From positions 1-35,663 of the IMG/VR virus record IMGVR_UViG_3300040751_001914: 35,663 nucleotides of DNA; one strand, given 5' to 3'. This document shows positions 5,620-26,858 of the stretch, piece by piece. Position 1 is the first letter of the stretch; each line of letters opens with the position of its first letter. Made by a program: the position numbers and the translations under genes. The notes under the pieces are model-generated. The model did not search any database, was not told the origin of the DNA, and saw only the letters and a program-made list of their open reading frames with translations. Source of the stretch: a virus.

Positions 5620-5626
5620 GCCGCAC

Positions 5627-5634
5627 AAGGAGGA
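5627..5634 (+). promoter_or_regulatory. Full-consensus Shine-Dalgarno AAGGAGGA
   Basis: It lies in the 20-bp gap after the hub-like gene, with 5 nt to the ATG at 5640. It is the strongest ribosome site in the window and fixes the start of the 234-aa gene. It predicts higher translation than for the neighbours with weak sites. Confidence 0.8.
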
Positions 5635-5639
5635 TAAAA

Positions 5640-8290: not shown

Positions 8291-8307
8291 AGGAGTTAAA
8301 TAACAGT

Positions 8308-8748
8308 ATGGGACAGTATAAACAAATAACACTTAAATCACAAAACAGTAATAATCCTGCTAAACAAACACGATCGCAGTTATATAGAGGCACAAGTACT
8401 GTAAACGAAAACAGTAAAAGTTTTGCTTTATACGATCAAGAACTTATCAAACAGGATATACTGAACCATTTTAACATTAAAAAAGGTGAAAAGATTTATA
8501 ATCCTAACTTTGGAAGTGTAATTTGGAATACTTTATATGAACCATTAGATCGAAAAACTAGAGAGATTTTGCTTGCTGATGTTGAACAGGTAATTGCATC
8601 AGATCCTAGGGTACAGGCCAGAACCATTGACATTATCGAACGAGAGTACGGAATACAACTAAACATAGAATTAGAGTTTGTAGCCTATTCTCAGATAGAA
8701 AAAATAGTCTATACATTTGATAGAGAAAATGGTCTTAGTACTGTATAA
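8308..8748 (+). CDS. 25: Baseplate wedge subunit gp25
   Basis: A 146-aa protein; T4 gp25 has 132. Residues about 40-146 carry the gp25 fold signature: LIKQDILNHFNIKKGEKIYN, then PNFGSVIWNTLYEP, a helix LLADVEQVIASDPR, and a beta hairpin ending in EYGIQLNIELEFVAY. gp25 starts sheath assembly on the wedge and is also the TssE homologue of type VI secretion. The N-terminal 35 residues are a polar extension. AGGAG lies 13 nt before the ATG in a 17-bp gap. It is followed by gp6 as expected for the wedge module. Confidence 0.9.
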   Translation: MGQYKQITLKSQNSNNPAKQTRSQLYRGTSTVNENSKSFALYDQELIKQDILNHFNIKKGEKIYNPNFGSVIWNTLYEPLDRKTREILLADVEQVIASDPRVQARTIDIIEREYGIQLNIELEFVAYSQIEKIVYTFDRENGLSTV

Positions 8749-8771
8749 AATAAAATACGCAGTTTATAATT

Positions 8772-8784
8772 TAAGGTAAATACT
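8772..8784 (+). promoter_or_regulatory. Intergenic motif TAAGGTAAATACT (copy 1), possible weak late promoter
   Basis: It lies in the 39-bp gap before gp6, the largest gap in the plus-strand baseplate block. The same 13 bases recur at 34099-34111 before the last fibre gene. The TAAATA core resembles the late motif, and a TATAAT occurs at 8765-8770 without a good -35. Here a start site would fall almost on the ATG, so the AAGG may simply be the ribosome site. Confidence 0.25.
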
Positions 8785-8787
8785 TGC

Positions 8788-11700
8788 ATGGCAACTTATG
8801 ACAGACAAAATTCGCTTTTAGTAAATCAAGATTGGACTAAGATCTATAGATCTTTTACTGATGCTGACTTTACATCCTATGATTTTCCTACTATTCGTAG
8901 GACTATGATTAACTATCTACGCAAAAATTATCCAGAAGATTTTAACGATTATATTGAAAGTAGTGAATATTTGGCGCTGATTGATGTTATTGCATATCTT
9001 GGCCAAAGTTTGTCATTTAGAGCAGATCTAAACGCTAGAGAAAATTTTATTGAAACTGCTCAAAAGAAAGAAAGTGTTTTAAGATTAGCAAGATTAGTTG
9101 GATACAACAACAAAAGAAATATCTGTGCAAGTGGAAATCTTAAAATTACAGGAGTTCAAACAACTGAAAACTTAAGAGACAGTTCAGGCGTAACATTAAG
9201 AAATAGATTTATTCTATGGAACGATGACTCTAATGCTAATTGGTTAGAGCAAATTATTACGATTATGAATAATACGTTTTCAGGAACAACTACATACGGA
9301 AAACCCACTGCGTCAGACACTGTAGGCGGAATTAAAACTGATGTTTATAGAATAAACACACGAACTAGCGATGTGCCTTCATTTAAATTTTCTAAATCTA
9401 TTTCTGGAATTAATACACAATTTAATGTTGTCAGTGCAAGACTGTTTAATCAAAACATTAGAGAAGAAACACCCCTTCCAGGTAACAACTTAGGAATTTT
9501 ATATAGAAATGATAAAAGAGGCAACAGTTCAGAAAACACTGGATTTTTCTTACACTTTAAACAAGGGGAACTTTTTACTTCAGGATTTCAAATAAATGAT
9601 CCAAGTGCAAACGAAGTTATTAATTTAGATACAAATAATATTAACAATACAGATGTTTGGTTATGGCAACTAGATGCTAACGGTAACTTTGTTAGACAGT
9701 GGACTAAATTAGATAACACTATTGGTAGTAATGCAGTTTACAACTCAGTTGCTAGAGACAATAGATCTATATACACTGTAATTTCAAGAGATAATGATCA
9801 AGTTAGTTTAAATTTTGCTGATGGCAGTTTTGGAGATCTTCCAAGAGGTAATTTTAGAACTTACTATAGAGTTTCAAATGGTTTATCATATAGTATTAAA
9901 CCAGCAGAATTGCAAAATATTGTAATTGATATTCCTTATATTAGTAAAAGTGGACAACAAAATACATTGACTATTCAGTGTGCATTACAAAGCACAGTCA
10001 CAAATGCTTCTGCTACTGAAACAACACGTTCAATTAGACAAAATGCACCACAAGCCTATTACACACAAAATAGAATGGTAACTGGTGAAGATTACAATAC
10101 TTTTCCATTAACTTCAAATCCACAAATTGTAAAAACAAAAGCAGTAAACAGAGCAAGCAGTGGAATTAGCAGACAGTACGAAATTAAAGATCCAACTGGA
10201 AAGTATTCAAGCACAAACATTATTGCTGATGATGGAATACTTTACAAAAACGATTATGAAATAGATTTTAGTTTTACTTTTAATACTAGAAATGATATTT
10301 TAGGTGCTGTACGTAATCAAATAGAACCTATTATATCAGGCATAGGAACAAAGAGTTTTTATTATGATCAGTTTCCAAGAATTCAGACTGCTGGATTAAA
10401 CATTGATTGGGTGCAGTCAACTAGTGCAAGCACAAATAGCACAGGTTATTTTAGAAATACTGTTAACGGTGCACCAATTACAGTTGGTGAATTTACAGGC
10501 AATAACTTTAGATTTATTGCTGTAGATTCTATGATTAAATTTGTTCCACCTAGTGGCAGATATTTCTTACCTAATGGTGAACTTACAACAACAAAAACTA
10601 AAACAACTAGAGATTATATATGGACAAAAGTATTAAATGTAGTTGGTGATGGATCAAACGGAGGTGTTGGCGCATTAGATGACGGAACAGGTCCTGTTAT
10701 ATTAAGTGAAAAGATTCCTAATCTTTCAATACCAAGCGAAATTGTTCCAAATATTGTAACAGATTTACCTAGTGATATTGAAACAGAGATTGTTGATCTA
10801 GTTTTTAATTACAAGAGTTTTGGAATTCGATATGATCAGCAAACGCTTACATGGAAGATTATTGCAAATGCAAATGTAAACACTGTTGATTCTTTTAGTT
10901 TAGACAGACAAGGCGACTTATCAGGTACTAAGTCCGATAAAAGTTGGTTTGTACTATTTGAAACAGATGGCGAAACATACACTGTTACTTACAGAGGATT
11001 AGATTACAGATTTGAAAGTGAAAACCTTGTACAGTTTTATGTTGATGCAAGAGGAAAAACAATCGACACAAAAACTGGGTTGGTAATTAAAGACCAAATT
11101 AAAGTTCTTAAAGTTAACGAAGATCCTGTAACAGATACAATTTTAGATAAAGACTATCAATGGGAAATTACAGGAACAATAAGAAATCCAGACGGCTATG
11201 AAGATGTTAACAGAGTAGAAGTTAATTTGTATGATAGTGACGATGATGGCATGGTTGACGACCCTGATAGTTTTATCAATTTGGTTGGTCCTGAATCTAT
11301 TGATGCAAGGGGTTATAGAGATAAGTTTGTATTCTTTCAAAACACAGTTGTTGGAAACACCACAGTTGCTAAAAAAGTAGATGCAAGTAGTTTTGTTATA
11401 TTTGATAGTGAGACTAGTATTCCTGCATTAAGTGATTACACTAATGGTCAGTTATTTTATTTTTACGGGTCAACTGAAAATATAATCAAAAGTTATAATT
11501 CTACAACAGGAGCACTTGATTTAGAAAACTCATACTTTGCAAAACCGGGTAGAGATAACATCAAATTCCAATATATTCATAATGCAGAAAATGATCGTAG
11601 ATTAGATCCTAGTAAAACAAACATTATTGATTTATATGTGTTAACACAAAACTATGATAATTCATATAGGCAAGCAATTTATAACGGTAGTGAACTACCA

Positions 11701-12258
11701 GAAGCACCCAGTTCTGAACAACTAAGAAGTCAGTTTGAGCCTGCATTACAAAATGTTAAATCTATTAGTGATACAATGATTTTCCATAGTGTAAAATATA
11801 GACCATTGTTTGGTCCTGGAGCAGACACAGATTTACAAGCACAATTTAAACTTGTAAGAACTGCTCAAAGTGTTATAAGTGATAATCAATTAAAAAGCGG
11901 TGTGATTAACGCAATTAACAGTTTCTTTACTTTAAGGAATTGGGATTTTGGTGATACTTTTTTCTTTACAGAATTAGCAACATTTATTCATAATTTTATG
12001 GCACCAGATTTGGCTAACATTGTAATTGTTCCTAGAAGTAATAACCAATCATTTGGAAGTCTTTTCCAAATTATTAGCAAGTCTGATGAAATTTTCATTA
12101 GCAGTGCAACAGTTGACAACGTAGAAATTATTGATAGTATAACAGCCTCTAATCTACAAGCAAGCGGCAATGTTATTAGTAGCGTTGAATCAGTAGGTAC
12201 TGTTTCCGTTACATCAAGTTCAAGTAATACTTCAAGTAACGGAGGTTCTATCTACTAA
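8788..12258 (+). CDS. 6: Baseplate wedge subunit gp6 (gpJ-like), enlarged
   Basis: A 1156-aa protein; T4 gp6 has 660. The N-terminus has the gp6/gpJ signature: NYPEDFNDYIESSEYLALID, then VIAYLGQSLSFRADLNAREN and ESVLRLARLVGYNNKR. Residues about 350-480 contain the central baseplate-J-type strands, including QNRMVTGEDYNTFPL. The C-terminal region about 970-1120 has TLRNWDFGDTFFFTELATFI, a wedge dimerisation-type segment. In T4, gp6 dimers form the continuous ring that holds the wedges around the hub. Residues 816-827 fit a DxDxDGxxxxxD calcium-loop pattern inside an inserted region. The C-terminus is a Ser/Thr/Asn-rich tail. The stop overlaps the start of the giant gene (TAATG), so the two are probably translationally coupled. 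Confidence 0.9.
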   Translation: MATYDRQNSLLVNQDWTKIYRSFTDADFTSYDFPTIRRTMINYLRKNYPEDFNDYIESSEYLALIDVIAYLGQSLSFRADLNARENFIETAQKKESVLRLARLVGYNNKRNICASGNLKITGVQTTENLRDSSGVTLRNRFILWNDDSNANWLEQIITIMNNTFSGTTTYGKPTASDTVGGIKTDVYRINTRTSDVPSFKFSKSISGINTQFNVVSARLFNQNIREETPLPGNNLGILYRNDKRGNSSENTGFFLHFKQGELFTSGFQINDPSANEVINLDTNNINNTDVWLWQLDANGNFVRQWTKLDNTIGSNAVYNSVARDNRSIYTVISRDNDQVSLNFADGSFGDLPRGNFRTYYRVSNGLSYSIKPAELQNIVIDIPYISKSGQQNTLTIQCALQSTVTNASATETTRSIRQNAPQAYYTQNRMVTGEDYNTFPLTSNPQIVKTKAVNRASSGISRQYEIKDPTGKYSSTNIIADDGILYKNDYEIDFSFTFNTRNDILGAVRNQIEPIISGIGTKSFYYDQFPRIQTAGLNIDWVQSTSASTNSTGYFRNTVNGAPITVGEFTGNNFRFIAVDSMIKFVPPSGRYFLPNGELTTTKTKTTRDYIWTKVLNVVGDGSNGGVGALDDGTGPVILSEKIPNLSIPSEIVPNIVTDLPSDIETEIVDLVFNYKSFGIRYDQQTLTWKIIANANVNTVDSFSLDRQGDLSGTKSDKSWFVLFETDGETYTVTYRGLDYRFESENLVQFYVDARGKTIDTKTGLVIKDQIKVLKVNEDPVTDTILDKDYQWEITGTIRNPDGYEDVNRVEVNLYDSDDDGMVDDPDSFINLVGPESIDARGYRDKFVFFQNTVVGNTTVAKKVDASSFVIFDSETSIPALSDYTNGQLFYFYGSTENIIKSYNSTTGALDLENSYFAKPGRDNIKFQYIHNAENDRRLDPSKTNIIDLYVLTQNYDNSYRQAIYNGSELPEAPSSEQLRSQFEPALQNVKSISDTMIFHSVKYRPLFGPGADTDLQAQFKLVRTAQSVISDNQLKSGVINAINSFFTLRNWDFGDTFFFTELATFIHNFMAPDLANIVIVPRSNNQSFGSLFQIISKSDEIFISSATVDNVEIIDSITASNLQASGNVISSVESVGTVSVTSSSSNTSSNGGSIY
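8839..8854. repeat. Perfect 16-bp palindrome AAGATCTATAGATCTT inside gp6
   Basis: Located 17-22 codons into gp6, where an mRNA hairpin could affect early elongation. About one such palindrome per two windows of this size is expected by chance at uniform composition, so function is doubtful. Confidence 0.3.
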
Positions 12259-15200
12259 TGGCATTTAGTGATAACAATAATGTTCCTGTAAATTCAGTGA
12301 ATAAAGACAAGTATAGAAATAGTGCAACACTATTACCTTTGTTCTTTAGAACAGAAGCAAATAAAAAGTTCTTAGGCTCCACCTTAGATACTTTAATATC
12401 TAAAGGACAGTTAGAAAAAATTAACGGTTACGTAGGTAGCAGATATGCTAAAACTGTAAAACCTAATGATAGATATATAACAGAACCAACTTCTAATAGA
12501 AGAAGATACAATCTATTACCGAGTGTTGTTATTAGAGATGAGTTTGATGATAGAACAGAATGGTTAGCAACTTATGATGATCTAATTAATCAACTAGATT
12601 TTTTTAACGGAAATACAGAAAATCACAATAAACTATTTTCTAGTAAGTATTATGCTTGGAATCCGCATATTGATTTTGATAAAATTTCTAACTACAGACA
12701 GTATTATTGGTTACCTCAAGGACCAAGTCCTGTTACAATTACAGGTCTTGCAGAAGGCAGTGTAAGTTCGTTCAATGTTACAAATCAAAACAGTAGTGCT
12801 TGGGTATTCACTCCAGACGGAAGCAGTTCTAATCCTGTTATCAAATTATATAGAGGTGCAACTTATAAGTTTGAAGTAAATGCACCTGGGCATCCTTTTT
12901 ATATTAAACTTGCTAGAACTACAGGCGATTTAGATCAGTACGAAGATGGTATTACTAATAATGGTACAGAAAACGGAGCAGTTGTTTTTACTATTCCAAA
13001 AGGTGCTCCAGACATACTTTATTATACTTGCGGCAATCATCAAGAAATGCAAGGTATTTTTGAAATTAGAGATGCTGTTGACGAACTTAATATTGATATT
13101 CCAACAGAAATTTTAGGTAAAAAAGAATATACAAGTTCTAATGGTGTTGTTTTTACTAACGGATTAAAAGTAAATTTTACAGGAGATGTTACTCCGAGTA
13201 GATACAAAAACAAAAACTTCTATGTTGACGGAGTAGGAAAAGAAATAGTATTATTACCTGTAAGTGAATTTGATACACCAGAAGGTTACAGTCAAAATTT
13301 TGATTATGAGTTTGACATTGAAAGTTTTGACGAAACACCTTATGATGACGCAGAAAGTTCTGCAGAAACTCCTGAGTATGTTACAATTAACAGAGCCAGT
13401 ATAGATAAAAACCCTTGGAGTAGATATAATCGTTGGTTCCATAAAGAAGTTATTGAAGTAACAGCAAAGTATAATAATACAAATGCTGTATTTGATGAAG
13501 ACAGTAGAGCAAAGCGTCCCATTATTGAGTTTTTACCTAATATACAACTTTATGATTTTGCCACACAAGCATTAGGTAATATAGATCTTATTGATACAGT
13601 TACTACTGATGCCTTTAGCGAAATAGAAGGACATATTGGTTATTATATTGATGAAGTAGATCTTGTAAAAGGTATGAGAGTTACTTTTAATGCAGATCCT
13701 GATATAACTGTACGTGGAAAAATATACGAAGTTGATTTTGTTAATCACGGTGGCCAATCAAGAATCCATTTAAAAGAAGTAGAAACAGCAACACAAGGAC
13801 ACGGGTTAGTTGTAACTAATGGTACAAACAATAAAGGCACAAGTTGGTATTACAACGGCAGTGATTGGTTAAAAGGACAGCAAAAAACAGAATTAAACCA
13901 AGCACCTAAATTTGATTTATTTGATGCTAGTGGCGTAAGTTTTACTGACACAAAATACGGAGTGCAAAATTTCCAAGGTAACGAACTTGTAAGTTACAAA
14001 ATAGGCACAGGAGAAAATGATCCTGTATTAGGTTTTCCAATCGAATATCAAAACGTAGCAAACATTGGCGATATAACATTTGAATTTGATTGGGACGATA
14101 AAAGTTTTACATATACTGAAAATGGCGTTTCGTATGTGCAAGACACTGCGGCAGGCGTAATTAAAGTAAACAAAAGTTTAACTGAAAGCGTTTTTGAGTC
14201 AGGATGGAGTTTAGTTGAAAATAAACTAAATCAAAGAATTATTCAATTAAATGATACTGTAAATCCTACAACAATTTTAGAAATTACTGCAATCAAAGAT
14301 CCTGGATTATATCTTACTGAAGATGATATTATTGTGGAATATTCTGGCAACATCTTAAAACCACAAACAGGTTTTACATTATCACGTAGTAATAATAACA
14401 AAAAATTATTTTTAAATTTTAACGAAACAATTCTAGCAGATAATAGACTTGTTACTAAAATAAAAACAGATAGATTACCTACACAGTTTGGTTTTTATGA
14501 ACCACCTGTTAATTTGCTTAACAACAGTGAGAATAACGATTTACAAACTTTTACTTTAGGAAGTGTAAGTAGTCATGTTCAAACTATATTTGAAAATGAT
14601 ATTAGGGTTGAAGGTAAATTTAATAATACGTCTAATGCTAGAGATGTAAGCGATCTTTATAAATTTGGAAACAGATACGTTAAACATCAAGGAAGTTTAC
14701 TGCCTGCTATTTTTGGACTAGTTGATGCAGAATCTAATGTTATTAAATCTATTAGAAAGAATGCATTAGATTACAGTGTATTCAAACAACAGTTTTTACA
14801 AGTTTTTGAAGCAACAGAAGTTACAGGAAATCCTGCAGATGATGTAGATGCAATGCTGTACAGTATGTCTTTAAATAAAAATACCGAAAGTGCTTACTAT
14901 TACAGTGATATGGCAGGATTTGGCCGCAGTTTAACAAAAACTGAATATACAGTAAATGCATTTGAACAACAGATTTTTGGAATACAAAGTAATTACAATT
15001 TAACTGAGATTTCAAACAGAAGTGTTTATGTTTATTTTAATGGTGAACATTTAATTAATAATGTTGATTATGAATTTGATGCTACTGACAACACAGTACT
15101 ATTAAAAAGAGAAACAGCCATAGGTGATGTTGTAAAGATTTATGACTATAACACTGTTGGTAATATTATTCCTAGCACTCCAACTAAATTAGGACTCTAT

Positions 15201-18200
15201 CCAAAGTTTACGCCTGTAATATATACAGATGATACTTATGTAACCCCTACAAAAATAATTCAAGGACACGACGGTAGTAAAACAGTTGCATATGATGACT
15301 ATAGAGACGAGTTAATTCTTGAATTAGAAAAAAGAATATACAACAACATCAAGGTAGAATACAAAAGAAATGTGTTTGATAATAACGAATTTTTACCTGG
15401 TGCATTTAGAAAAACAGAATTTAATGTAGATCAAGTTACAAAAATTTTAACAGATGATTTTAACTATTGGGCAAACTTATATGGTGTAGATTATCTTAAT
15501 AACTTAACATCAGTCGAAGGCGAAGTTTTTTCTTATAATCTTAGCAGTGCAATTGATACTGTAAACAGTGAAAAACTACCAGGATACTGGAAAGGAATTT
15601 ATAAAAAATTCTTTGATACTGATAGACCGCATACTGCTCCGTGGGAAATGTTGGGGTATAGTGAAAAACCGACTTGGTGGGAAGATCGTTATGGTCCTGC
15701 ACCATACACAAAAGGAAATAATATTCTATGGCAAGACCTTGAAAAAGGGTTTGATTATGGTCTAGGCAAAGTAAATCCGATTTACACAAGGGAAGGATTA
15801 AGTAAGAATATTCCTGTAAATGACTATGGAGAATTATTAAGTCCTATCCAAACAAACTTAGTATCAGGATTTATTACAACTAATTTAAACAATAACTGGG
15901 TATTTGGAGATTATGGTCCAGCAGAATATGCATGGAGATCTAGCAGTTGGTATCCATATGTGCAACAAATATTACTTGCACTATTAAAGCCTGCTAATTA
16001 TCTTACCATACAGTATGATACAAGTCAAAATTTAAAATCATTAAGTGATAATGTAATTTACAAAGATACAGGAAAAATAATAGACTTTACTGATACAAAA
16101 GTTCATAATTTATTTTATAACAACGAAAGATATTTTGGTGCAGGGTATCATGTATTTGTAGTGGATTACTTAAAATCTAAAGATCAAAATGTGCTAGAAG
16201 CCTATGCAGATAGACTTAGTAAAACTAGTATGAATGTAACTTATAAAACTGGTGCGTTTGTTAATAAAGAAAGACTTAAAGTATTATTAGAAAGCAGTAA
16301 TCCAAATACACCAGATAAAAGTATATTCTTACCAGATGAAAATTTTGAGATAACGTTTAGAAAATCTAATCCTGTGTTTACTGCAAACATTTCTGGTATT
16401 ATTGTTGAAAAGGTAGATAATGGATATCTAGTAAAAGGTTATGATAGATATTCTCCGTCATTTAAAATTTACAAGCCAATTTTATCACAACAAAATCAAG
16501 CAGTAAATGTAGGCGGTGTAAGTGCTAACTTTGTAATTTGGCAAGAAGAAAAGTTTTATGGAACTGCACAGATTGTTCAATACGAAGATTCTTATTATAG
16601 AGTAAAAGAAGATCACACTACTAATCAGACGTTTGATCCTACACTTTATACTAGATTGCAGGAACTGCCATTAACTGGCGGAGCAAGTGTTCAAAAGCCT
16701 ACAATGTTTGAAGAAACTGTTTCTGAAATCCCTTATCAAACAGTTTTACCTAACAAACAAGAAGTTTATAATTTACTTTTAGGATATGAAAAATATCTTA
16801 CTAGCATTGGTTTTGAATTTAACAATGTAATAAATGAACTTGGCGAAGTTAGTGATTGGAGTTTAAGTGGTAAAGAATTTTTATATTGGACTACACAAAA
16901 TTTTGCTAAAGGTAGTGTAATTACACTTGCACCGTTTGCTCGTAAGGTTGAATTTAAATTCCAAAATGGTCAGGTAGATAATCTTTTAGATAGTTTTTAT
17001 GAGTACAGCATTTATAATGCAGGCGGCAATCCTATATCTAGAAATTATATTAGTACTATTAGAGAAAGTGGTAAATTCCAATTACTACCTAAAGAAACAC
17101 AAGAAGGTATATTTAATGCACAACTTAATCTTGTACAAAAAGAACATGTAATTGTGTTTGATGATAAAAGTGTTTTTGGTGATATCATTTATGATCAAGA
17201 AGCAGGTTATAGACAAGAACGTATAAAATTTATTGGATTTAAAACTACAGAATGGGATGGCGACATATATTCTCCAGGGTTTGTTTATGATGAAGCAAAG
17301 ATTGCTCCATGGGCATCTTTTAAAGATTATAACTTAGGGGATGTTGTAAAATATAAATCTAAATATTATAGTGCAAAACAGTTTCTTCCAGGAGAAGAAA
17401 CGTTTGATTATAACAAGTGGTTATATCTACAAAACGACCCAACAGCAGAACTTCTACCTAACTTAGATTTTAAAATTAGTAGTTTTCAAGATTTTTATAA
17501 TTTAGATACAGAAGTATTTGACGAAGCATCATCTAAATTATCACAACATTTAGTTGGGTATCAAAAACGTTTTTATCTTGATAATTTAATTCAAGATAAT
17601 CTTGCACAATACAAGTTCTATCAAGGGTATATAAAAGAAAAAGGAACTAAAAATGCAATAGATGCTATTAGTAGATTAAAAATCGATGATGTACAAACAG
17701 ATATTACATTTGATGAAGAATGGGCATTTAACGTAGGAAGTTTAGGAAGTAGTGCTACAGTTAAAGAATTAGAATTTGCATTAGATGAAAGATTAAATAT
17801 TGAAAATCCACAAGCATATGATTTTGCAAGCAGTATCACTGCAAATACAACGCCAGGAAATAATATTCAGTTATTAGCAAATGCTATCGCTGTTAAACCT
17901 GCAGACTATGACAATAATCCTTGGCCAGTAACAACACTAGATTCTACCGCAGGCATTACTAGTGATTATGTAAATGTTTTGCCAGTAGCAGGATACCCTA
18001 GAATTGATGATATTCCTACAACAGCATTTAGTTTTAATGATATGATAGGAAGTAATATTATTAATCAGTTAGATGATAGTGATCTAGTTTGGGTAGCAAA
18101 AGATAAAGATAACGACTGGAATGTATATCAACTTCAAACTATTCCTGCTAGGGTAATACAAACAGATGATGTAAAAACAGAATTTTCAGATAATGAAATT

Positions 18201-21200
18201 ATTCTTAATACAGATATTGTGCATAATCTTACCCAAGGACAGATTATAAGCATTAAGAGTTTTAGTGAAGATGTAGACAATGTTTACATTGTTAAGAGAG
18301 TAACAAGTACAACGCAATTTGTTGTAGATGGTCCAGATGCAAGTGTTACTATTGAAGACAGTACCTCAGGAGAAATATTAGAATTCATTAGTAATAGAAT
18401 TAATCAACCTGATGATATTAACAACATTAAAAACGTAACAAAAATTGAAAATGATTCACTTGTTTATGCAGACGATGACGGTACTGGTAAATGGGCAGTA
18501 TATCAAAAAACACGAGCATGGAAAGAAAACAAGTGGGGTGCTCCAAACTTAATTGAACAACAAAAGTTTGGATACAATATAACAACAGCAAATCAAGGAA
18601 GAACTATTGTTGTAGCGGCTCCTACACTTGGTGATGAAGGCCAAATTTATATTTTAAATAGAGAGTTTAACACAGGTATTGAAACTCTACAAACAACTCA
18701 AGGTTTTGCAATTTCTTTTAATTCTAGTGATAACATTGTAAGTGATGCTGGTATACCGGCGTTAGGAAGCAGTTTAGCAATTAGCAACGACGGTACTGTA
18801 TTAGTTGCTGGAGCATCAGAATCTAGTAATTTCAAAGGTGCAGACGATAGCACATACGGTAATGGATTTAGAGTAAGTGTAGGTGACTTTACTGTAGAAC
18901 CTAGTCCTTATTCAAGAGAAGGTGTAGTTACTTTACACACTTATGACACAGAAGAAAACTTATTCAAGTTAAACTATGTTATTGGTTCTAGCGAGCCTGA
19001 AGACGATTTACATTTTGGTGCAAGTGTTCTAGTTTCAAATACAAAATTACTAGTAGGTGCTCCGGGTAAAACAAATTATCAAGGTAAGGTTTACATTTAC
19101 GATAAAACAACTCGACCTGACGGTAGTACACTTGATTGGGATCTAAGTGATCATCACATTTTGTCTATTCCTAACAGCAGAGATGGTGATAAATTTGGTT
19201 CAGCAATGACAGCAACATCAGATTTAAGTATAATTGCAGTAAGTGCCCCGGGATACGAAGAACAAGGCGACGATAGCACAGCAAATAAAGGTGCAGTATT
19301 CATTTACAGTTTGAATAGTAATAATGAATATCAATTACTACAAACTATTAGCAGTGCTACATTTAATGAAATTGATTCTGGAGATAGTTTTGGATACGCT
19401 ATGGATATGAGCGATAACGGTAATACTCTTATTGTTAGTGCGCCATACGACGATGCTAATGCTATTAATAGTGGCGCTGTTTACTACTTTAAGAAAACAG
19501 GCGATGATAGCAGTCAAAATTTATACACATATCAACAAACAATTTTCAGTCCATTAAAAGCAGTCCAAGAACAGTTTGGAGCCAATGTAAAACTTAATGA
19601 AACTGGTACAAGTTTTGCTGTTTGGAGTCAGCACGGCAAAAACAGACTAGAAACATCATTTGATAAATTTACTAGGTTAGACGATAGTTCATTAGAAGAA
19701 ACTACAACCGAAACTACGTTTGATTCTAACAGCATGAACATTATTGATGAGAATTATGCAAGCGGAACTGTTTATACTTACACATTGGTTAATACAAAGT
19801 TTGTTTATGGTCAACAACTTAGCAGTGATACAACAAACGAATTTGATGAATTTGGTAGAGGTTTAGCATTTATTGGTAATTCGTTAATGGTGGGTGCACC
19901 AAACTCTAAAGTTAGTGCTACTAACCTAACACCAATTGGTAGTTTGTTTGTATATCAAAAAACTGGTTCAGGAGGCTGGAATAAATTACGTTCACAGACG
20001 CAACCAACCAATCCTTACAGTGTTAAAAAAGCATTTACTTACAATACTTTAAAAAATGAAGTAAAAGACTTTTTAGAAACGTTAGATCCTGTAAAAGGAA
20101 AAATACCCGGTTTAGCAGAAGCAGAAATAAGTTATAAATCTTCAATTGATCCTGCTTCATACACACAAGGAAGCGGAACTGTTACAGTAAAACCAACAAC
20201 AGCATGGACAGAAAATCATGTTGGTGAAGTTTGGTGGGATCTTTCAACTGTTGCATATGTTTGGTATGAACAGGGTGATACAGAATATAGAAAAGCAAAC
20301 TGGGGAACATTATTTCCTGGATCTACAATAGATGTGTATGAGTGGGTAGAATCTACACTTAAACCTAGTCAGTGGGCCGAACTATCAGCAACTGGTCAAG
20401 GGTTTGCAAGTGGTATTAGTGGAACACCTAAATACGGTGATGACACAGTTGTTATTAAAAATATATATAACAGGACTACAAGTAGTTTTGAAAGACGATA
20501 TTACTTTTGGGTAAAAAACAAAGTAGATGTACCAAATTTAGAAAACAGAAACTTGCCTGTTGTTGAAGTAGCAAACATAATAACTGATCCTCAGGCTTAT
20601 GGAATTAAAAGTATTCAGTTACTTAATAAAAATTCACTAAGTTTAAGTAATATTAAAACTACTTTAGACGATAAAAATATATTCATTAATATACAATACA
20701 GAGAAGTAGAAACAGACTTACCTGAACATAATGAATGGCAAATTATTGGTGAAAATCAATACAAAAAAATTGATAATGAATTACTAGTTAAAAAATTAAT
20801 TGATAGTGCTGTTGGATACGATAGCCAAGGTAATCCTGTGCCAGATACAGCGTTACCGGTTCAACGAAAGTATGGTTTACAGATAAGACCAAGACAGAGT
20901 ATTTTTGTAAATAGACTTTCAGCGTTAAAAGAATTAGTAACATATGTTAACAATATAATGATAAAAAACAGAATTGTTGACACAAAAAATATAGATGCAT
21001 TGTTTGAAAAAGATCCTCTACCTGCCGCAGGAAGTGGAAAATGGGATATTCAGATTGATGACCATGCAGACCTTTCACAAGTAGGTACTGAAGAACTTAA
21101 AACAGCAACAGCAACAGCAGTATTGAAAAATGGAAAAATACAGTCAATCAATATTACTAATCCTGGATTTGGTTATAAAAATGCTCCTGAAATTTTAATT

Positions 21201-24200
21201 ACAGGTGACGGGTCAGGTGCTAAATTAAAAACAAATATTGATAGTAACGGAAAAGTTACTAGTGTAGAAGTACTCAAAAAAGGTCAAAATTATAAAACTG
21301 TTAACTTAGAGTTTAGAAGATTCCGTGTATTAGTTACTTTAGATGAAACTGCTAACAATAACTGGGCAATATATGAGTGGCAAGCAGAAACTAGAATTTG
21401 GAATAGAACAAACACACAAACATTTGATTTATCACGTTTTTGGTCCTACAAAGATTATATTGTAGACGGGTTTGATATTGATAGCATAATAAATTATAAA
21501 GTTTCTGCAACATACGAACTTAATACTATTAGTCCTAATGAAGGAGAATTAGTACAAGTTGATAATGCTGGCGACGGTAATAAAATAATTTTACAAAAAG
21601 TAATACAAAACGGATCGTTTTCAGATGAATACGATTTAATGTATAAAGCAAAATCAACAATACAGATAAACACTAACATTTACAATTATGAAGAATTAAA
21701 TTTTGGTTTCGCAGGATTTGAAAATTATGATGTAAATCTATTTGATAGTGAGCCTATCACAGAAACACGCAGAATCTTAGAAATAATTAGAGATGATATA
21801 TTTGTTGACGATCTTAAAGATAATTGGAATAAACTTTTCTTTATAGCAATTCGTTATATATTTGCAGAACAAAACTTTGTAGATTGGGTATTCAAAACAA
21901 GTTTCATTACAGTAGACAATAAATTAGGTGGATTTAGTAAAAAACTAAATTACAAAGTAACAGACCCTGGCTATATTGAAAGATATGTTGAAGAAGTAAA
22001 ACCATACAAAACAGTAATAAGAAACTTCTATAATAGTTTTAATGAATTAGAAACTAGTAATATAGGAAATACTGACTTTGACTTACCAAGTTATTGGGAC
22101 AATACAAATAAAAAGTTTGTTGTACCTAAAATTACAAGTGATGTTATTACGCAGGAACCCTATGTAAACTGGTTTGATAATTACAAGTTTAAAATTGGAA
22201 AAATTAATGTAACAGACGACGGTGCAGGATATACAGAACCACCAATTGTTGTTATTAGTGGCGGTAGAACTAACAAGCCTGCAATTACCGAAACACAGCA
22301 GTTTAGACCACTTGTAACTACAGATTATACTGATAGTAGATTCTTTGTTAAAACAACAAGTATTCCTGATCACGGTTTTGCTAGAAATCCAGGAGTTAAT
22401 ACTGTAACAGCACAAGACTTTACTTTTGAAATTACAAGAACTCCGGTTGAGGCATTAGACAAAGTTGAAACACCGCTTGGTACTATTGGTGTTGCTGTTA
22501 ATGGAGTTGTTATTTTCAATCCAAAAGCGGCTTTAACAGAACAACGTGGTAATGTTGATTATCAAATTAATGCAGTTTACAGCCACGACGAATTAGGAAT
22601 TGATGACGGTAGCGGCCACCCCCAAGAAGATGGCATTTATCACTATCACAGCGATCCTCGTTTAATGTACGAAAAAGATCCTAACAATCATTCACCTTTA
22701 CTAGGTTATGCACTTGACGGATATCCAATTTATGGACCTTATGGTTGGGATACTACAACAGGTAGAAGTAATCCAAGGGTAATAAAATCAAGTTACAGAT
22801 TAAAGACTACACCTAGAACTGATGGCAGTGATCCAGATGGAAGATACATTGAAGATTTTGAATATGTTGCAGGTCTAGGAGATTTAGATCAACATAATGG
22901 TAGAACCTGTAACACACCAGAATATCCAAATGGAATATATGCATATTTTGTTACAGTAGATCCTACTGATACAGATGTTGCTGTATATCCATACATTATT
23001 GGACCAACTTATTATGGTGCACCTATATTGCCTAATGGTAATAAAACATTGCCTGGAGAAGAATTTGAAGATGCATCAGCAGTAGCATATACTTCTAGAG
23101 GAATTGTAAGAGAAGTTGTTGTTACTAAACAAGGTAGTGGTTATGTAAGTGCTCCTACAGTAACACTTGCAGGCGGTGGTGGTGCCAACACAGTTACTAG
23201 TGAGGCAAAAGCATATGCAATACTAGAAAACAAAAAAGTACGTATTAATACTGTTAATATGAAGTTTGATAGAATTGCAACTAAGAAAGTAATTCAAACA
23301 CAAACACAGACTGATACATTTACTGCAACAGCAGGACAGATTAAATTTAAATTAACTTATCTACCTACTCTTGACAAACGTAAAATTAATATCAACATTG
23401 AAAATGAAACAGTTTATATTGAAAATTATGAAGTTAGTATAGTAACTGTTAAAGACAGAACGTACAAAAAGCAAGAAGGTTATATAATTTTAAATACACC
23501 TCCAGGAAAAAATGCTAGTGTTAGCATTGCTTACGAAAAATCAATCAGTCTTATGCAGGCAACTGATAGAATTGATTACTATTATGAACCTACATCAGGC
23601 ATGGCAGGTAAAGATCCTGCACAGTTAATGACTGGTGTTGATTATGATGGCGTTCAAGTACAAGGATTAGAGTTTGATATTAGTGTTGGCTGGGACGGCT
23701 TACCATGGTTTAGTCATGGTTGGGACACATTCTCAGGTACAAATACTGATTATGCTTTCCGTGCAGACGGAACTACTACAACATTTACATTACCGTATGT
23801 TCCGGAACAAGATCAAGAAATAAATGTTTACTTTGATAGTGTAAGACAAGATCCAACAAATACTCCAACTATTGTTGGTGACGGTGCAACAGACACATTC
23901 ACACTGAATATTGCCGCACAAGACGGAACACTAGTAGTGTTTAGGCAAACAGAATCGGATGGTAGTTTAGTACCAACAGACGTAAACAACCTAGATGCTA
24001 TTATACAAGGTGGCAACTTTAGTTACTCAACTGCAACAGGTACTAAACCTGAAGATGTTGACATTGACGGCGACGGATTTGTAACACCAGACACTAGTCA
24101 TGCACCAGAAGAAGTAGTTCCGGGTCAGGCATTTGACAGTTTAAGTATTAGCATTTACAATGCACCAGCAGATGGTTCACCGCTAATTGTTACAAATAGA

Positions 24201-26204
24201 TATTTTGGTAATAGTTTGTTAAGACGTTACAGTTTTGATTTGTATCCAGGTACAGAAGACAGTGTGTTTGTAACTGTAGCAGGAGAATATTTAGAAAACG
24301 GAACAGATTACACAATTGATTTCCAAAATAAAGAAATTGTTTTTGTTGATGCACCTGAAATAGATGAATTAGTAACAATTCAAACTCTAAATGTTGGTGG
24401 TGCAAATATTCTTGAAAGAAAACAGTTTACAGGCGACGGAAGCACAACTGAGTTTGAATTAACAGCCAAGTACGAAGATGTAGGAAGTGCATTTGTAACA
24501 GTTGATGGCGTTAGCAAAGAATATGTTATTAGAGAAAGCGATACAGGAAGTGCGTTAATTGATGTTAATAATCCTCCTCCAATAAGCAACAGTGTGATAC
24601 AAATTACAGGGTTAAGCACAACAGAAAAAACTTACAGTGAAATTGTAAAAGAATCAATTGCCGATGACGGTAGTAGCACAGCATACACTATGGCAAACAT
24701 TCCTGGTAACATTGCTCCGTATCATAACATGGTAATTGCAGAAGTAAAAGATCTAGACACAGGAATTATTACTAGACTGTTACCACCTGACACGGTTTAC
24801 TATGTAAGTAATGGAGTAACACAACAATACACTGTTAGCCAAGATCCAGAATATCCTGTATTCCAACTTGCACTAGGAGAAATTGAAGTTTATCTAAATG
24901 GTGCAAAACTTGTTCCAATTAGAGACTTTAACTTTGACACACAAACTAATCTTGTAACATTTAATCAAAATGTATTAACAAGTGGTGATGTAATTGCAAT
25001 TACAATTCTTAAAAATCACGAATATGAAATAAATGTTACTGGCGATAGTGCAGGTGATACAGAATCTAATTTAATTATTGTTAAAGATAGAGCAGAATTA
25101 CCTACAAATGCTGAATACCATGTTACTACATTTACAAATCATGACAGTAACTTGATTAGAAAAGAAGTGTTTAGTGGAAAACTTGGTGGAACCTACAAAT
25201 TAAGTCGTCCTGCTATTGATTCAAATTATGTTTGGGTTGAAGTAGACGGAACACCATTAGTTGCAGAACGTGATTATAAAATTTTAGATAATAATGTTAC
25301 TGTTGAAATTGATAATAAGTTCACAGTGTTACCAACTTCACGAATTACAGTAACTACATTTAGCGAAGAATTAAGTTTCAACTCAATTGGGTATAAAGTG
25401 TTTAATGATATGTTAAACAGAACACACTTTAAACGTATTAGTGAACAAGACAGCACAGAATTAGCACAAGATTTGAATATAAGTGACACAGAAATTGTAG
25501 TCAACGATGCTAGTTTCTTTGATACACCTTCACCTAGCGATAAAACACCTGGTGTTGTGTGGATTGATAGAGAAAGAATTGAATTTTACACAATTTCAAA
25601 CAATACCTTAGGACAAATAACACGCGGTACACTTGGTACTGGTATAAAAACAGTGCATACAGCAGGTACTAAAGTGTTTGATTCTGGTCCAGAACAAACA
25701 GTTCCATATAAAGAAACTGTAAATGTATACGAAAGTATTATACGCCCTGGATTACCAAATGGTAAGAAAGAACATGTTCTTGAAACAGTTAATATTTCAA
25801 GCAGTGCTAATGCACATGATCAAGTTGAAGTGTACTTAGGTGGTAGAAAACTGCAAAAACCAACAGTATCTACTAATCCAATTAAAGTACATGACATCGA
25901 AATTGCTTATGATAGCAACGAAGTAGACAGTGACGGTGTATCAAGCGATGTTACGCAAGTACCAGAGTTTACTATTGACCCAGTAGCAGATTCAAGTGGT
26001 AAAAATTACTATAAATTAACATTGAGGGATGAGCCTCAAGATGGTTTAGAACTAAAAGTAGTTCAAAGACAAGGTAGAGTATGGTACGAGCAAAGCGTTA
26101 ATACAGCGTCTAACGGCGCTACTTTACAACGTGCAGAGACTGCACAGGCTAAGTTCTTGCTTGAAAGAACCAGTGGCTTACCTGTAATAAATATTAGAGA
26201 ATAA
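12258..26204 (+). CDS. Giant multidomain baseplate/virion structural protein in the gp7 position
   Basis: A 4648-aa uninterrupted frame directly after gp6. The N-terminus (PLFFRTEANKKFLGSTLDTL, then INGYVGSRYAKT) resembles large baseplate proteins of marine myophages. In order: cupredoxin-like domain (about 190-272); beta regions; a Trp/Pro-rich module (about 1100-1255, DTDRPHTAPWEMLGY); chitin-binding-like motifs (1428-1471, 1685-1725); a seven-repeat FG-GAP propeller (2103-2585); a Trp-rich module (about 2650-2710, WWDLSTVAYVWYEQGD); GxGY beta repeats (about 2957, 3311, 3613) flanking a YHYH domain (about 3370-3595); a conserved-looking helical block (about 3150-3250, NFVDWVFKTSFITVDN); six or more fibre-type beta modules (about 3677-4380); and a terminal block ending near GRVWYEQ. 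GGAGG at 12241 and a TAATG overlap support the start. I infer the wedge periphery and host contact. Whether it is cleaved is unknown. Confidence 0.75.
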   Translation: MAFSDNNNVPVNSVNKDKYRNSATLLPLFFRTEANKKFLGSTLDTLISKGQLEKINGYVGSRYAKTVKPNDRYITEPTSNRRRYNLLPSVVIRDEFDDRTEWLATYDDLINQLDFFNGNTENHNKLFSSKYYAWNPHIDFDKISNYRQYYWLPQGPSPVTITGLAEGSVSSFNVTNQNSSAWVFTPDGSSSNPVIKLYRGATYKFEVNAPGHPFYIKLARTTGDLDQYEDGITNNGTENGAVVFTIPKGAPDILYYTCGNHQEMQGIFEIRDAVDELNIDIPTEILGKKEYTSSNGVVFTNGLKVNFTGDVTPSRYKNKNFYVDGVGKEIVLLPVSEFDTPEGYSQNFDYEFDIESFDETPYDDAESSAETPEYVTINRASIDKNPWSRYNRWFHKEVIEVTAKYNNTNAVFDEDSRAKRPIIEFLPNIQLYDFATQALGNIDLIDTVTTDAFSEIEGHIGYYIDEVDLVKGMRVTFNADPDITVRGKIYEVDFVNHGGQSRIHLKEVETATQGHGLVVTNGTNNKGTSWYYNGSDWLKGQQKTELNQAPKFDLFDASGVSFTDTKYGVQNFQGNELVSYKIGTGENDPVLGFPIEYQNVANIGDITFEFDWDDKSFTYTENGVSYVQDTAAGVIKVNKSLTESVFESGWSLVENKLNQRIIQLNDTVNPTTILEITAIKDPGLYLTEDDIIVEYSGNILKPQTGFTLSRSNNNKKLFLNFNETILADNRLVTKIKTDRLPTQFGFYEPPVNLLNNSENNDLQTFTLGSVSSHVQTIFENDIRVEGKFNNTSNARDVSDLYKFGNRYVKHQGSLLPAIFGLVDAESNVIKSIRKNALDYSVFKQQFLQVFEATEVTGNPADDVDAMLYSMSLNKNTESAYYYSDMAGFGRSLTKTEYTVNAFEQQIFGIQSNYNLTEISNRSVYVYFNGEHLINNVDYEFDATDNTVLLKRETAIGDVVKIYDYNTVGNIIPSTPTKLGLYPKFTPVIYTDDTYVTPTKIIQGHDGSKTVAYDDYRDELILELEKRIYNNIKVEYKRNVFDNNEFLPGAFRKTEFNVDQVTKILTDDFNYWANLYGVDYLNNLTSVEGEVFSYNLSSAIDTVNSEKLPGYWKGIYKKFFDTDRPHTAPWEMLGYSEKPTWWEDRYGPAPYTKGNNILWQDLEKGFDYGLGKVNPIYTREGLSKNIPVNDYGELLSPIQTNLVSGFITTNLNNNWVFGDYGPAEYAWRSSSWYPYVQQILLALLKPANYLTIQYDTSQNLKSLSDNVIYKDTGKIIDFTDTKVHNLFYNNERYFGAGYHVFVVDYLKSKDQNVLEAYADRLSKTSMNVTYKTGAFVNKERLKVLLESSNPNTPDKSIFLPDENFEITFRKSNPVFTANISGIIVEKVDNGYLVKGYDRYSPSFKIYKPILSQQNQAVNVGGVSANFVIWQEEKFYGTAQIVQYEDSYYRVKEDHTTNQTFDPTLYTRLQELPLTGGASVQKPTMFEETVSEIPYQTVLPNKQEVYNLLLGYEKYLTSIGFEFNNVINELGEVSDWSLSGKEFLYWTTQNFAKGSVITLAPFARKVEFKFQNGQVDNLLDSFYEYSIYNAGGNPISRNYISTIRESGKFQLLPKETQEGIFNAQLNLVQKEHVIVFDDKSVFGDIIYDQEAGYRQERIKFIGFKTTEWDGDIYSPGFVYDEAKIAPWASFKDYNLGDVVKYKSKYYSAKQFLPGEETFDYNKWLYLQNDPTAELLPNLDFKISSFQDFYNLDTEVFDEASSKLSQHLVGYQKRFYLDNLIQDNLAQYKFYQGYIKEKGTKNAIDAISRLKIDDVQTDITFDEEWAFNVGSLGSSATVKELEFALDERLNIENPQAYDFASSITANTTPGNNIQLLANAIAVKPADYDNNPWPVTTLDSTAGITSDYVNVLPVAGYPRIDDIPTTAFSFNDMIGSNIINQLDDSDLVWVAKDKDNDWNVYQLQTIPARVIQTDDVKTEFSDNEIILNTDIVHNLTQGQIISIKSFSEDVDNVYIVKRVTSTTQFVVDGPDASVTIEDSTSGEILEFISNRINQPDDINNIKNVTKIENDSLVYADDDGTGKWAVYQKTRAWKENKWGAPNLIEQQKFGYNITTANQGRTIVVAAPTLGDEGQIYILNREFNTGIETLQTTQGFAISFNSSDNIVSDAGIPALGSSLAISNDGTVLVAGASESSNFKGADDSTYGNGFRVSVGDFTVEPSPYSREGVVTLHTYDTEENLFKLNYVIGSSEPEDDLHFGASVLVSNTKLLVGAPGKTNYQGKVYIYDKTTRPDGSTLDWDLSDHHILSIPNSRDGDKFGSAMTATSDLSIIAVSAPGYEEQGDDSTANKGAVFIYSLNSNNEYQLLQTISSATFNEIDSGDSFGYAMDMSDNGNTLIVSAPYDDANAINSGAVYYFKKTGDDSSQNLYTYQQTIFSPLKAVQEQFGANVKLNETGTSFAVWSQHGKNRLETSFDKFTRLDDSSLEETTTETTFDSNSMNIIDENYASGTVYTYTLVNTKFVYGQQLSSDTTNEFDEFGRGLAFIGNSLMVGAPNSKVSATNLTPIGSLFVYQKTGSGGWNKLRSQTQPTNPYSVKKAFTYNTLKNEVKDFLETLDPVKGKIPGLAEAEISYKSSIDPASYTQGSGTVTVKPTTAWTENHVGEVWWDLSTVAYVWYEQGDTEYRKANWGTLFPGSTIDVYEWVESTLKPSQWAELSATGQGFASGISGTPKYGDDTVVIKNIYNRTTSSFERRYYFWVKNKVDVPNLENRNLPVVEVANIITDPQAYGIKSIQLLNKNSLSLSNIKTTLDDKNIFINIQYREVETDLPEHNEWQIIGENQYKKIDNELLVKKLIDSAVGYDSQGNPVPDTALPVQRKYGLQIRPRQSIFVNRLSALKELVTYVNNIMIKNRIVDTKNIDALFEKDPLPAAGSGKWDIQIDDHADLSQVGTEELKTATATAVLKNGKIQSINITNPGFGYKNAPEILITGDGSGAKLKTNIDSNGKVTSVEVLKKGQNYKTVNLEFRRFRVLVTLDETANNNWAIYEWQAETRIWNRTNTQTFDLSRFWSYKDYIVDGFDIDSIINYKVSATYELNTISPNEGELVQVDNAGDGNKIILQKVIQNGSFSDEYDLMYKAKSTIQINTNIYNYEELNFGFAGFENYDVNLFDSEPITETRRILEIIRDDIFVDDLKDNWNKLFFIAIRYIFAEQNFVDWVFKTSFITVDNKLGGFSKKLNYKVTDPGYIERYVEEVKPYKTVIRNFYNSFNELETSNIGNTDFDLPSYWDNTNKKFVVPKITSDVITQEPYVNWFDNYKFKIGKINVTDDGAGYTEPPIVVISGGRTNKPAITETQQFRPLVTTDYTDSRFFVKTTSIPDHGFARNPGVNTVTAQDFTFEITRTPVEALDKVETPLGTIGVAVNGVVIFNPKAALTEQRGNVDYQINAVYSHDELGIDDGSGHPQEDGIYHYHSDPRLMYEKDPNNHSPLLGYALDGYPIYGPYGWDTTTGRSNPRVIKSSYRLKTTPRTDGSDPDGRYIEDFEYVAGLGDLDQHNGRTCNTPEYPNGIYAYFVTVDPTDTDVAVYPYIIGPTYYGAPILPNGNKTLPGEEFEDASAVAYTSRGIVREVVVTKQGSGYVSAPTVTLAGGGGANTVTSEAKAYAILENKKVRINTVNMKFDRIATKKVIQTQTQTDTFTATAGQIKFKLTYLPTLDKRKININIENETVYIENYEVSIVTVKDRTYKKQEGYIILNTPPGKNASVSIAYEKSISLMQATDRIDYYYEPTSGMAGKDPAQLMTGVDYDGVQVQGLEFDISVGWDGLPWFSHGWDTFSGTNTDYAFRADGTTTTFTLPYVPEQDQEINVYFDSVRQDPTNTPTIVGDGATDTFTLNIAAQDGTLVVFRQTESDGSLVPTDVNNLDAIIQGGNFSYSTATGTKPEDVDIDGDGFVTPDTSHAPEEVVPGQAFDSLSISIYNAPADGSPLIVTNRYFGNSLLRRYSFDLYPGTEDSVFVTVAGEYLENGTDYTIDFQNKEIVFVDAPEIDELVTIQTLNVGGANILERKQFTGDGSTTEFELTAKYEDVGSAFVTVDGVSKEYVIRESDTGSALIDVNNPPPISNSVIQITGLSTTEKTYSEIVKESIADDGSSTAYTMANIPGNIAPYHNMVIAEVKDLDTGIITRLLPPDTVYYVSNGVTQQYTVSQDPEYPVFQLALGEIEVYLNGAKLVPIRDFNFDTQTNLVTFNQNVLTSGDVIAITILKNHEYEINVTGDSAGDTESNLIIVKDRAELPTNAEYHVTTFTNHDSNLIRKEVFSGKLGGTYKLSRPAIDSNYVWVEVDGTPLVAERDYKILDNNVTVEIDNKFTVLPTSRITVTTFSEELSFNSIGYKVFNDMLNRTHFKRISEQDSTELAQDLNISDTEIVVNDASFFDTPSPSDKTPGVVWIDRERIEFYTISNNTLGQITRGTLGTGIKTVHTAGTKVFDSGPEQTVPYKETVNVYESIIRPGLPNGKKEHVLETVNISSSANAHDQVEVYLGGRKLQKPTVSTNPIKVHDIEIAYDSNEVDSDGVSSDVTQVPEFTIDPVADSSGKNYYKLTLRDEPQDGLELKVVQRQGRVWYEQSVNTASNGATLQRAETAQAKFLLERTSGLPVINIRE
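12826..13073 (+). other. Cupredoxin-like domain within the giant protein (residues about 190-272)
   Basis: The segment starts with GATYKFEVNAPGHPFYIKL and ends with LYYTCGNHQEMQGIFEI. His212, Cys258, His261 and Met264 have the order of a type 1 copper site, with 46 residues from the first His to Cys and Cys-x2-His as in plastocyanin. The Met spacing is two residues shorter than in plastocyanin. Copper binding is not shown, and the fold may be purely structural. Confidence 0.5.
16539..16671 (+). other. CBM5/12-like aromatic motif 1 in the giant protein (residues 1428-1471)
   Basis: The pattern W, then YGTAQIVQYEDSYYRVKEDH, then a gap and LYTRL follows the W-x-Y-x-G-x-x-V-x-Y-x-x-x-x-Y order of small chitin/cellulose-binding domains. 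A similar segment lies at residues 1685-1725 and another in the spike protein. Carbohydrate binding is inferred. Confidence 0.35.
17310..17432 (+). other. CBM5/12-like aromatic motif 2 in the giant protein (residues 1685-1725)
   Basis: W1685 is followed by YNLGDVVKYKSKYYSAKQF and, after about 10 residues, YNKWLYL. This is the closest of the three copies to the CBM5/12 pattern (Y-x-x-G-D-V-V-x-Y-x-x-x-Y-Y-x-A, final W). It may bind glycan or only stabilise a fibre-like arm. Confidence 0.45.
18564..20015 (+). other. Seven-repeat FG-GAP beta-propeller domain in the giant protein (residues about 2103-2585)
   Basis: Seven repeats of the integrin-alpha FG-GAP type are visible, starting at residues 2104, 2169, 2253, 2313, 2378, 2440 and 2532. 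Each has FG or LG, a short strand, and a strand ending in a VGAP-like motif (VVAAP, VAGAS, LVGAP, AVSAP, IVSAP, AVWSQ, MVGAP), mostly followed by a G-x-V-Y-I-Y strand. Seven is the number needed for one closed propeller. Such domains usually bind proteins or glycans. Confidence 0.75.
21127..21311 (+). repeat. GxGY glycine-rich beta repeat, copy 1 (residues about 2957-3018)
   Basis: Pattern: K-I-x-S-I-x-I-T-N-P-G-F-G-Y-K-x-A-P-E-I-L-I-T-G-D-G-S-G-A. Related copies begin near 22192 and 23095, the latter two lying on either side of the YHYH domain. The role is probably structural. Confidence 0.55.
22365..23035 (+). other. YHYH domain in the giant protein (residues about 3370-3595)
   Basis: The defining Y3461-H-Y-H3464 lies in DGIYHYHSDP. 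Further family-like blocks are present: GTIGVAVNGVVIFNP before it, then LGYALDGYPIYGPYGW, GDLDQHNGRT and YPNGIYAYFVT. The His-rich pattern suggests metal binding, but the function of this family is not established to my knowledge. It is flanked by the second and third GxGY repeats, as if inserted in a beta scaffold. Confidence 0.8.
23287..25400 (+). repeat. Series of fibre-type beta modules in the C-terminal part of the giant protein
   Basis: At least six degenerate units are seen at about residues 3677, 3833, 3982, 4051, 4175 and 4300. Each has a start like FTGDGSTTEFEL or ADGTTTTFTL, then V-x-V-x-G-x-x-L/K-x-x-x-x-DY, then a strand I-x-F/V-x-x-x-P and an I-T-I-x-T-type strand. This is the pattern of repeated beta domains in phage tail fibres. 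Boundaries are approximate. Confidence 0.6.
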
Positions 26205-26207
26205 CCA

Positions 26208-26858
26208 ATGTCAGACAAGGATAAAACAGTGAAAACAACATATCAAAAGCCAAATGAAAATCAGGGTGTGCTTATGGAAGGGCACATTAAGATTAGTGAC
26301 CCTGAAACTAAGAAAGTTTATGTAGATAAAAGAAATGCAATTCATTATGAAAATATGAGTATCTCATTAGCAGAATCATTAGGTAATGAAGGACGTGGTA
26401 ACATTGTTGAAATGGCTTTTGGCAATGGTGGTACTACAGTTGATCCTACTGGCATTATTACATATTTGACACCAAACAACGTTGGTGTTAACGCAAGTTT
26501 ATACAATCAAACATACTATAAAACTGTAGATGATAACAACGTAAATAATACAGATCCAAGTAGAAACTTTATTGAAACTAGACACACATTAGGTACAACA
26601 TACACAGATATCTTAATTAGTTGTTTGTTAGATTACGGTGAGCCTAGCGGTCAAGAAGCATTTGATAATTCAACTGACATGGACGGAAACTATGTGTTTG
26701 ATGAACTAGGATTAAAAGCATACACACCAAATGGTGCAAACGAAGGAAGACTTTTAACACATGTAGTATTTCATCCAGTGCAAAAGTCATTGAATAGATT
26801 AATTCAAATTGATTATACGATTAGAATTCAAAGTTTAACAAACATAAGCGAGATTTAA
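26208..26858 (+). CDS. Virion structural protein of unknown family, baseplate-fibre junction candidate
   Basis: A 216-aa protein three bases after the giant gene and three bases before the first fibre gene. The N-terminus is charged (residues 1-20), followed by beta-rich sequence with MEGHIKISDPETKKVYVDKR, a glycine-rich GNGGTTVDP turn near 73, and a C-terminal strand pair HVVFHPVQKSLNRLIQIDYT. I do not recognise it as T4 gp8, gp9, gp10 or gp11. Its location where T4 has those genes suggests a small adaptor between wedge and fibres. The ribosome site is weak, so translation may depend on coupling to the very long upstream gene. ATG was chosen because it is the first in frame and sits close to the upstream stop. 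Confidence 0.65.
   Translation: MSDKDKTVKTTYQKPNENQGVLMEGHIKISDPETKKVYVDKRNAIHYENMSISLAESLGNEGRGNIVEMAFGNGGTTVDPTGIITYLTPNNVGVNASLYNQTYYKTVDDNNVNNTDPSRNFIETRHTLGTTYTDILISCLLDYGEPSGQEAFDNSTDMDGNYVFDELGLKAYTPNGANEGRLLTHVVFHPVQKSLNRLIQIDYTIRIQSLTNISEI

Follow-up and report, generated by a model that had tools for sequence, protein, structure and literature searches.

Homologues of the T4 wedge proteins gp6, gp25 and gp53 have been shown in phage CBB (PMC5259590). CBB also encodes a very large protein of the phrog_10938 family, whose named members are CBB_236, phAPEC6 gp245, GAP32_230, PA5oct gp128, Atu_ph07 gp180 and the protein of Phosso. Mass spectrometry of virions detected CBB_236 (21 unique peptides, 7.7% coverage; PMC5259590). 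Similarly, phAPEC6 gp245, a protein of 381.9 kDa whose gene we checked to be a homologue of the one described here, was found in virions (17 unique peptides, 7.6% coverage; PMC7247149), and the PA5oct record flags gp128 as ESI-MS/MS. All the virion evidence considered below comes from such homologues, and the published peptide lists carry no position in the particle. In pelagiphages, a VrlC protein has been proposed to replace gp7 (PMC7029224). In cyanophage Sf-CH8, a 4878-aa protein annotated as 'baseplate wedge subunit' (Sf-CH8_62, phrog_2885; positions 2456-17092 of record L140) is encoded between gp6 and gp8, and its N-terminal core matches the T4 gp7 core (probability 77-87%); it is a separate case of giant gp7. 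Since cyanophage virion proteins reach ~6,400-6,900 aa according to annotated coordinates, size alone does not make a protein such as the one studied here exceptional.

The window analyzed in this work is the whole 35,663-nucleotide stretch of IMG/VR virus record IMGVR_UViG_3300040751_001914. It carries a group of wedge-type genes followed by a single giant gene:

2150-2455, + strand: gp53-like baseplate wedge protein, same cluster (phrog_7145, 1.6e-20)
8308-8748, + strand: gp25-like wedge protein (PF04965, 4.6e-8; phrog_43)
8788-12258, + strand: gp6-like baseplate wedge protein, 1156 aa, immediately 5' of the giant gene (phrog_10646, 2e-298; phrog_219, 4e-23)
12258-26204, + strand: candidate giant baseplate gene, 4648 aa, ATG-started ORF with a stop-free translation
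26208-26858, + strand: 216-aa downstream gene, strongly conserved partner (12 of 12 relatives, 65-97% identity)

The identity of the upstream gene as gp6 is confirmed by its match to phrog_219, which is the T4 gp6 family, and the CBB gene found at the same place as the gp53-like gene carries the family annotation Phage_gp53 (PF11246). The ATG of the giant gene overlaps the gp6 stop codon by one base (TAATG), with a GGAGG ~12 nt upstream, and the predicted product reaches ~500 kDa. The ORF, its translation and this overlap bear out the first-pass annotation, which had placed a 4648-aa stop-free frame directly after gp6.

The window being a metagenomic contig, the frame could in principle be an assembly fusion, or a raw-read error could hide stops or frameshifts. 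An independent contig that is 99.4% identical (L009) differs from the window at 84 nucleotides, mostly at third codon positions, and aligns without gaps across all 4648 codons of the giant gene. Divided into tenths and compared with a more divergent relative (L107, 74% nucleotide identity), the gene gives dN/dS values of 0.06-0.14 in all parts and is under purifying selection from end to end. Furthermore, each of the 11 complete relatives retrieved from IMG/VR has an open frame (4367-4894 aa). Therefore, the giant gene is no sequencing artefact: the read-error objection raised in the first-pass annotation is ruled out, and an assembly fusion is already refuted, its likelihood being practically nil. 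One relative, L088, looks as if it carried three genes at this place (3291-16093), due to a frameshift and an in-frame stop. Since a 99.9%-identical copy (L095) is intact and open, a natural splitting of the gene was rejected.

Both tblastn and PHROG searches place the giant in phrog_10938, a family of jumbo myophages described as 'virion structural protein' after gp6 (1079 bits in the PHROG search). Colinear blast segments link it to all 10 cultured homologues, namely those of Phosso (4555 aa), Atu_ph07 (4449), Paride (3857), PA5oct (3857), SCTP-2 (3807), Vibrio 2.275 (3771), GAP32 (3341), CBB (3340), PBECO4 (3333) and XaC1 (3332). Moreover, at least 270 relatives are found in IMG/VR, on contigs up to 270 kb. 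The giant is thus a member of a known, widespread but understudied jumbo-phage family and not the single case that it had seemed to be. The gp25-gp6-giant order is found in most cultured jumbo phages that have a homologue. The exception is SCTP-2, in which gp6 is located ~92 kb from the giant gene; a 3096-aa gene (L006, 8624-17914) lies directly upstream of the giant homologue in this phage, and gp6 elsewhere in the genome. The cultured members resemble the giant in most of its scaffold and mostly in gene order, but they are mostly shorter and lack the propeller, the YHYH domain and the window-type cupredoxin described below.

The scaffold common to the cultured homologues amounts to ~2,300-2,400 residues, distributed in five blocks with approximate limits. 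Along the chain, the blocks and the other modules are the following:

12258-12752, + strand: scaffold block 1 (residues 1-165), shared by all 10 homologues of cultured jumbo phages
12759-13109, + strand: cupredoxin-like insert (residues ~168-284) with ligands H212, C258, H261 and M264 (Foldseek)
13305-14177, + strand: scaffold block 2 (residues 350-640), conserved in cultured homologues
14475-18257, + strand: scaffold block 3 (residues 740-2000), conserved in cultured homologues
16524-16649, + strand: chitin-binding type-3-like module 1 (residues 1423-1464; PDB profile search, E 0.001)
17283-17438, + strand: chitin-binding type-3-like module 2 (residues 1676-1727; PF02839, E 0.02, below cut-off)
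17613-17690, + strand: KFYQGYIKEKGT... motif (residues 1786-1811), candidate gp7-core equivalent (weak profile match)
18255-19967, + strand: FG-GAP beta-propeller insert (residues 2000-2570; PF14312, FG-GAP_2, 3.6e-15)
19995-20957, + strand: scaffold block 4 (residues 2580-2900), conserved in cultured homologues
21405-22127, + strand: scaffold block 5 (residues 3050-3290), conserved in cultured homologues
22290-23057, + strand: YHYH insert (residues 3345-3600; Pfam match 3390-3570, PF14240, 1.1e-50)
23355-26201, + strand: C-terminal tail of repeated fibre-type beta modules (residues 3700-4648; repeats; DUF2460-like, 1.1e-5, below cut-off)

The positions of the inserts vary among homologues and their order is kept. 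Most modules of the giant are lineage-specific additions, placed between the blocks of a conserved scaffold or in the long C-terminal tail, and do not represent a fusion of gp7, gp8, gp9, gp10 and gp11, as none of these profiles matches. Most modules that had been recognized from the translation alone are found again by profile or fold. For instance, the FG-GAP_2 match confirms the propeller, which is almost unoccupied among the 10 cultured homologues and is carried by aquatic relatives only. The PF14240 match likewise confirms the YHYH domain (172.7 bits for a curated cut-off of 25). This domain is present in all 11 near relatives, none of the 47 more distant ones has a match to residues 3351-3500, and the insert is flanked by two GxGY beta modules, with motifs at 3322 and 3626. 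Fibre-type modules are seen in the C-terminal part, with repeat units at 3710, 3846, 3994, 4200 and 4316 that were seeded by eye, so that their E-values are circular. The glycan-binding-like motifs are plausible, as two weakly matching chitin-binding type-3-like modules that both sit within the scaffold: the model of module 1 matches chitin-binding domains with a Foldseek probability of 1.00 but E-values of 0.07-0.13, and module 2 matches the chitinase module 2rts of the PDB with an E-value of 0.08. The whole protein has no direct sequence match in the PDB, its first 1150 residues giving chance-level matches only, and a search of viral structures returned mainly proteins of the giant's own family and modules of the cupredoxin type from cyanophages.

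The cupredoxin-like domain is supported by its fold, since Foldseek matches the insert to rusticyanin, pseudoazurin and plastocyanin with a probability of 1.00 (target TM-scores of 0.43-0.56 for small cupredoxins). The type-1 copper ligand set H212, C258, H261 and M264 is kept in 17/17 near relatives and in 0/66 more distant aquatic sequences; as there is some redundancy among these sequences and the near relatives form one clade, the comparison amounts to a single evolutionary contrast. In relatives at 30-43% identity, the cupredoxin fold is retained without the ligands, and the YHYH domain is absent. The cupredoxin in the form found in the window occurs in aquatic relatives and is absent in that form from cultured homologues. 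The same module is found in 233 phage records, nearly all of them cyanophages, and the H, C, H, M pattern is present in the three cyanophage proteins examined (from P-SSM2, Bellamy and Syn33). These gp9-like connectors and tail-fibre proteins (phrog_677) thus share module and pattern with the giant, but there the cupredoxin is part of smaller connector or fibre proteins.

How the giant relates to gp7 was examined by profile, family and fold. No significant match to T4 gp7 was found by hhalign against a 23-sequence gp7 profile, nor any to the family phrog_964, no gp7 domain was found by Pfam search, and the predicted-fold search gave no gp7 or TssG match, with models of low confidence near the KGT motif and in the N-terminal part. 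Among 16 scaffold windows compared with the cyanophage gp7 core, the one at residues 1740-1870 scores best (probability 18.8%, E 0.0013, not significant), and the KGT motif of the giant aligns in the same register with the cyanophage gp7 core and with T4 gp7. As controls, hhalign matched the gp6 of the window to T4 gp6 with a probability of 62% and the downstream collar fibre to gp12 with 65%. Fused T4 gp8, gp9, gp10 and gp11 were rejected, the probability being at most 13% for gp10, around a fibre-type beta module, and 2% or less for the others. The matches of phrog_438 fall on a repeated beta module and not on the parts that T4 gp8 shares, and gp8 was therefore rejected as a component of the chain. 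Homology to the giant or VrlC-type protein of Sf-CH8 was also rejected by the test used, as only YHYH and GxGY modules are common. Although Sf-CH8_62 too lies directly after gp6, its scaffold is not detectably homologous, a separate gp8 is kept and its core matches T4 gp7. In eight complete jumbo genomes that encode giant homologues, no member of the T4 gp7 or gp8 family could be detected, by a search that did recover T4 as positive control. The giant is therefore equivalent to gp7 in position and probably in function, similar in its gene position after gp6 and in the register of a KGT-type motif, but 4.5 times longer and not a proven homologue.

Downstream of the giant gene, the 216-aa gene is followed by a gp12-like collar fibre. 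Relatives that share only 31-39% identity in their giants have 216-aa proteins that are 65-70% identical, and the positional counterpart of this protein in PA5oct is flagged ESI-MS/MS in the record. These downstream genes match no gp7-gp11 profile, which agrees with the first reading of the window; this does not extend to the relative Paride, where a gp10 C-terminal-like gene lies a few genes downstream of the giant one. Four fibre-type proteins are encoded downstream (26862-28883, 28883-30721, 30736-33129 and 34129-35661). Their N-terminal ~70-100 residues are common to all four (phrog_15511, phrog_14394), which suggests a putative single docking domain for several fibres. The last of these genes contains a tandem 12-bp repeat, GTAACAGGTAAT (5.2 copies, 35107-35168).

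Because of its position next to gp6, the presence of homologues in virions, its colinear scaffold with optional inserts, the absence of the gp7 and gp8 families from the eight jumbo genomes, the weak KGT register and the gp7-like core of the cyanophage giant, we consider it likely that the giant is a structural wedge protein of the baseplate found where T4 has gp7, acting as linker and display arm and likely forming one chain. Counted against this reading are the lack of a gp7 profile or Pfam match, the lack of a fold match with models that are poor in the relevant parts, and the SCTP-2 giant, which is not beside gp6. We infer the location in the baseplate from gene order. The scaffold would bind gp6-like subunits in the manner of gp7 in T4 and in simpler contractile tails, where the wedge is a 2:1 complex, and a single chain could thereby link what gp7 and gp8 link in T4. 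The inserts (glycan-binding-like modules, propeller, cupredoxin, YHYH and fibre-type repeats) would be held out as a receptor-facing periphery, near which the separate collar fibres may attach. The proposal that one giant gene takes the place of gp7 and its neighbours stands in part: it is supported for the gp7 position, with gp7 and gp8 undetectable in the eight jumbo genomes and homologues in virions, and profiles of gp8 to gp11 find no match in the chain; that it builds an entire peripheral wedge arm was an overstated inference.

The many surface-type domains could instead point to a receptor-binding or side-fibre-like adhesin on the periphery of the baseplate, the gp6 wedge being completed by another protein, e.g. 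the product of the 216-aa downstream gene or a 1054-aa upstream protein. Such an adhesin would fit with a gp7 homology that cannot be demonstrated, with the unlinked gp6 of SCTP-2 and with a 216-aa neighbour that is better conserved than the giant. We nevertheless regard it as unlikely: the most conserved part of the giant is its long N-terminal and middle scaffold, the surface-type domains being variable inserts, its start overlaps gp6, and the gp7 and gp8 families are both missing from the eight jumbo genomes. Even less probable, in our opinion, is a polyprotein that is cut into several baseplate parts during assembly. The size of the giant and the low peptide coverage of its virion homologues (7.6-7.7%), which leaves room for missing parts, are compatible with cleavage, and in the CBB/PBECO4/XaC1/GAP32/phAPEC6 group the giant gene is followed by one for an ATP-dependent protease. 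However, no such gene follows it in the window, no gp8, gp9, gp10 or gp11 profile matches along the chain, the inserts vary in position and keep their order, and the literature consulted reports no processing of the protein. Pfam search of the chain found no peptidase or intein family. One uncleaved chain thus seems the simpler reading, and the giant most likely stays so in the proposed wedge.

The most interesting new detail of the giant is the copper-type ligand set that occurs with YHYH. In a jumbo-phage comparison, YHYH domains were predicted to be tail-associated metal-dependent hydrolases (PMC7824862), which is itself a prediction. A functional blue-copper (type-1) site in the baseplate wedge, alongside a YHYH metal-binding domain, is a tentative and rather doubtful proposal for the clade of the window. 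If true, the baseplate would bind metal, and might serve as a sensor of metal or of the redox state, or as a cell-surface hydrolase. The retention of such a ligand set in a tail protein is undescribed in the literature searched. Furthermore, the scaffold-plus-insert anatomy of the giant is informative and offers clear targets for the structure of jumbo-phage baseplates.
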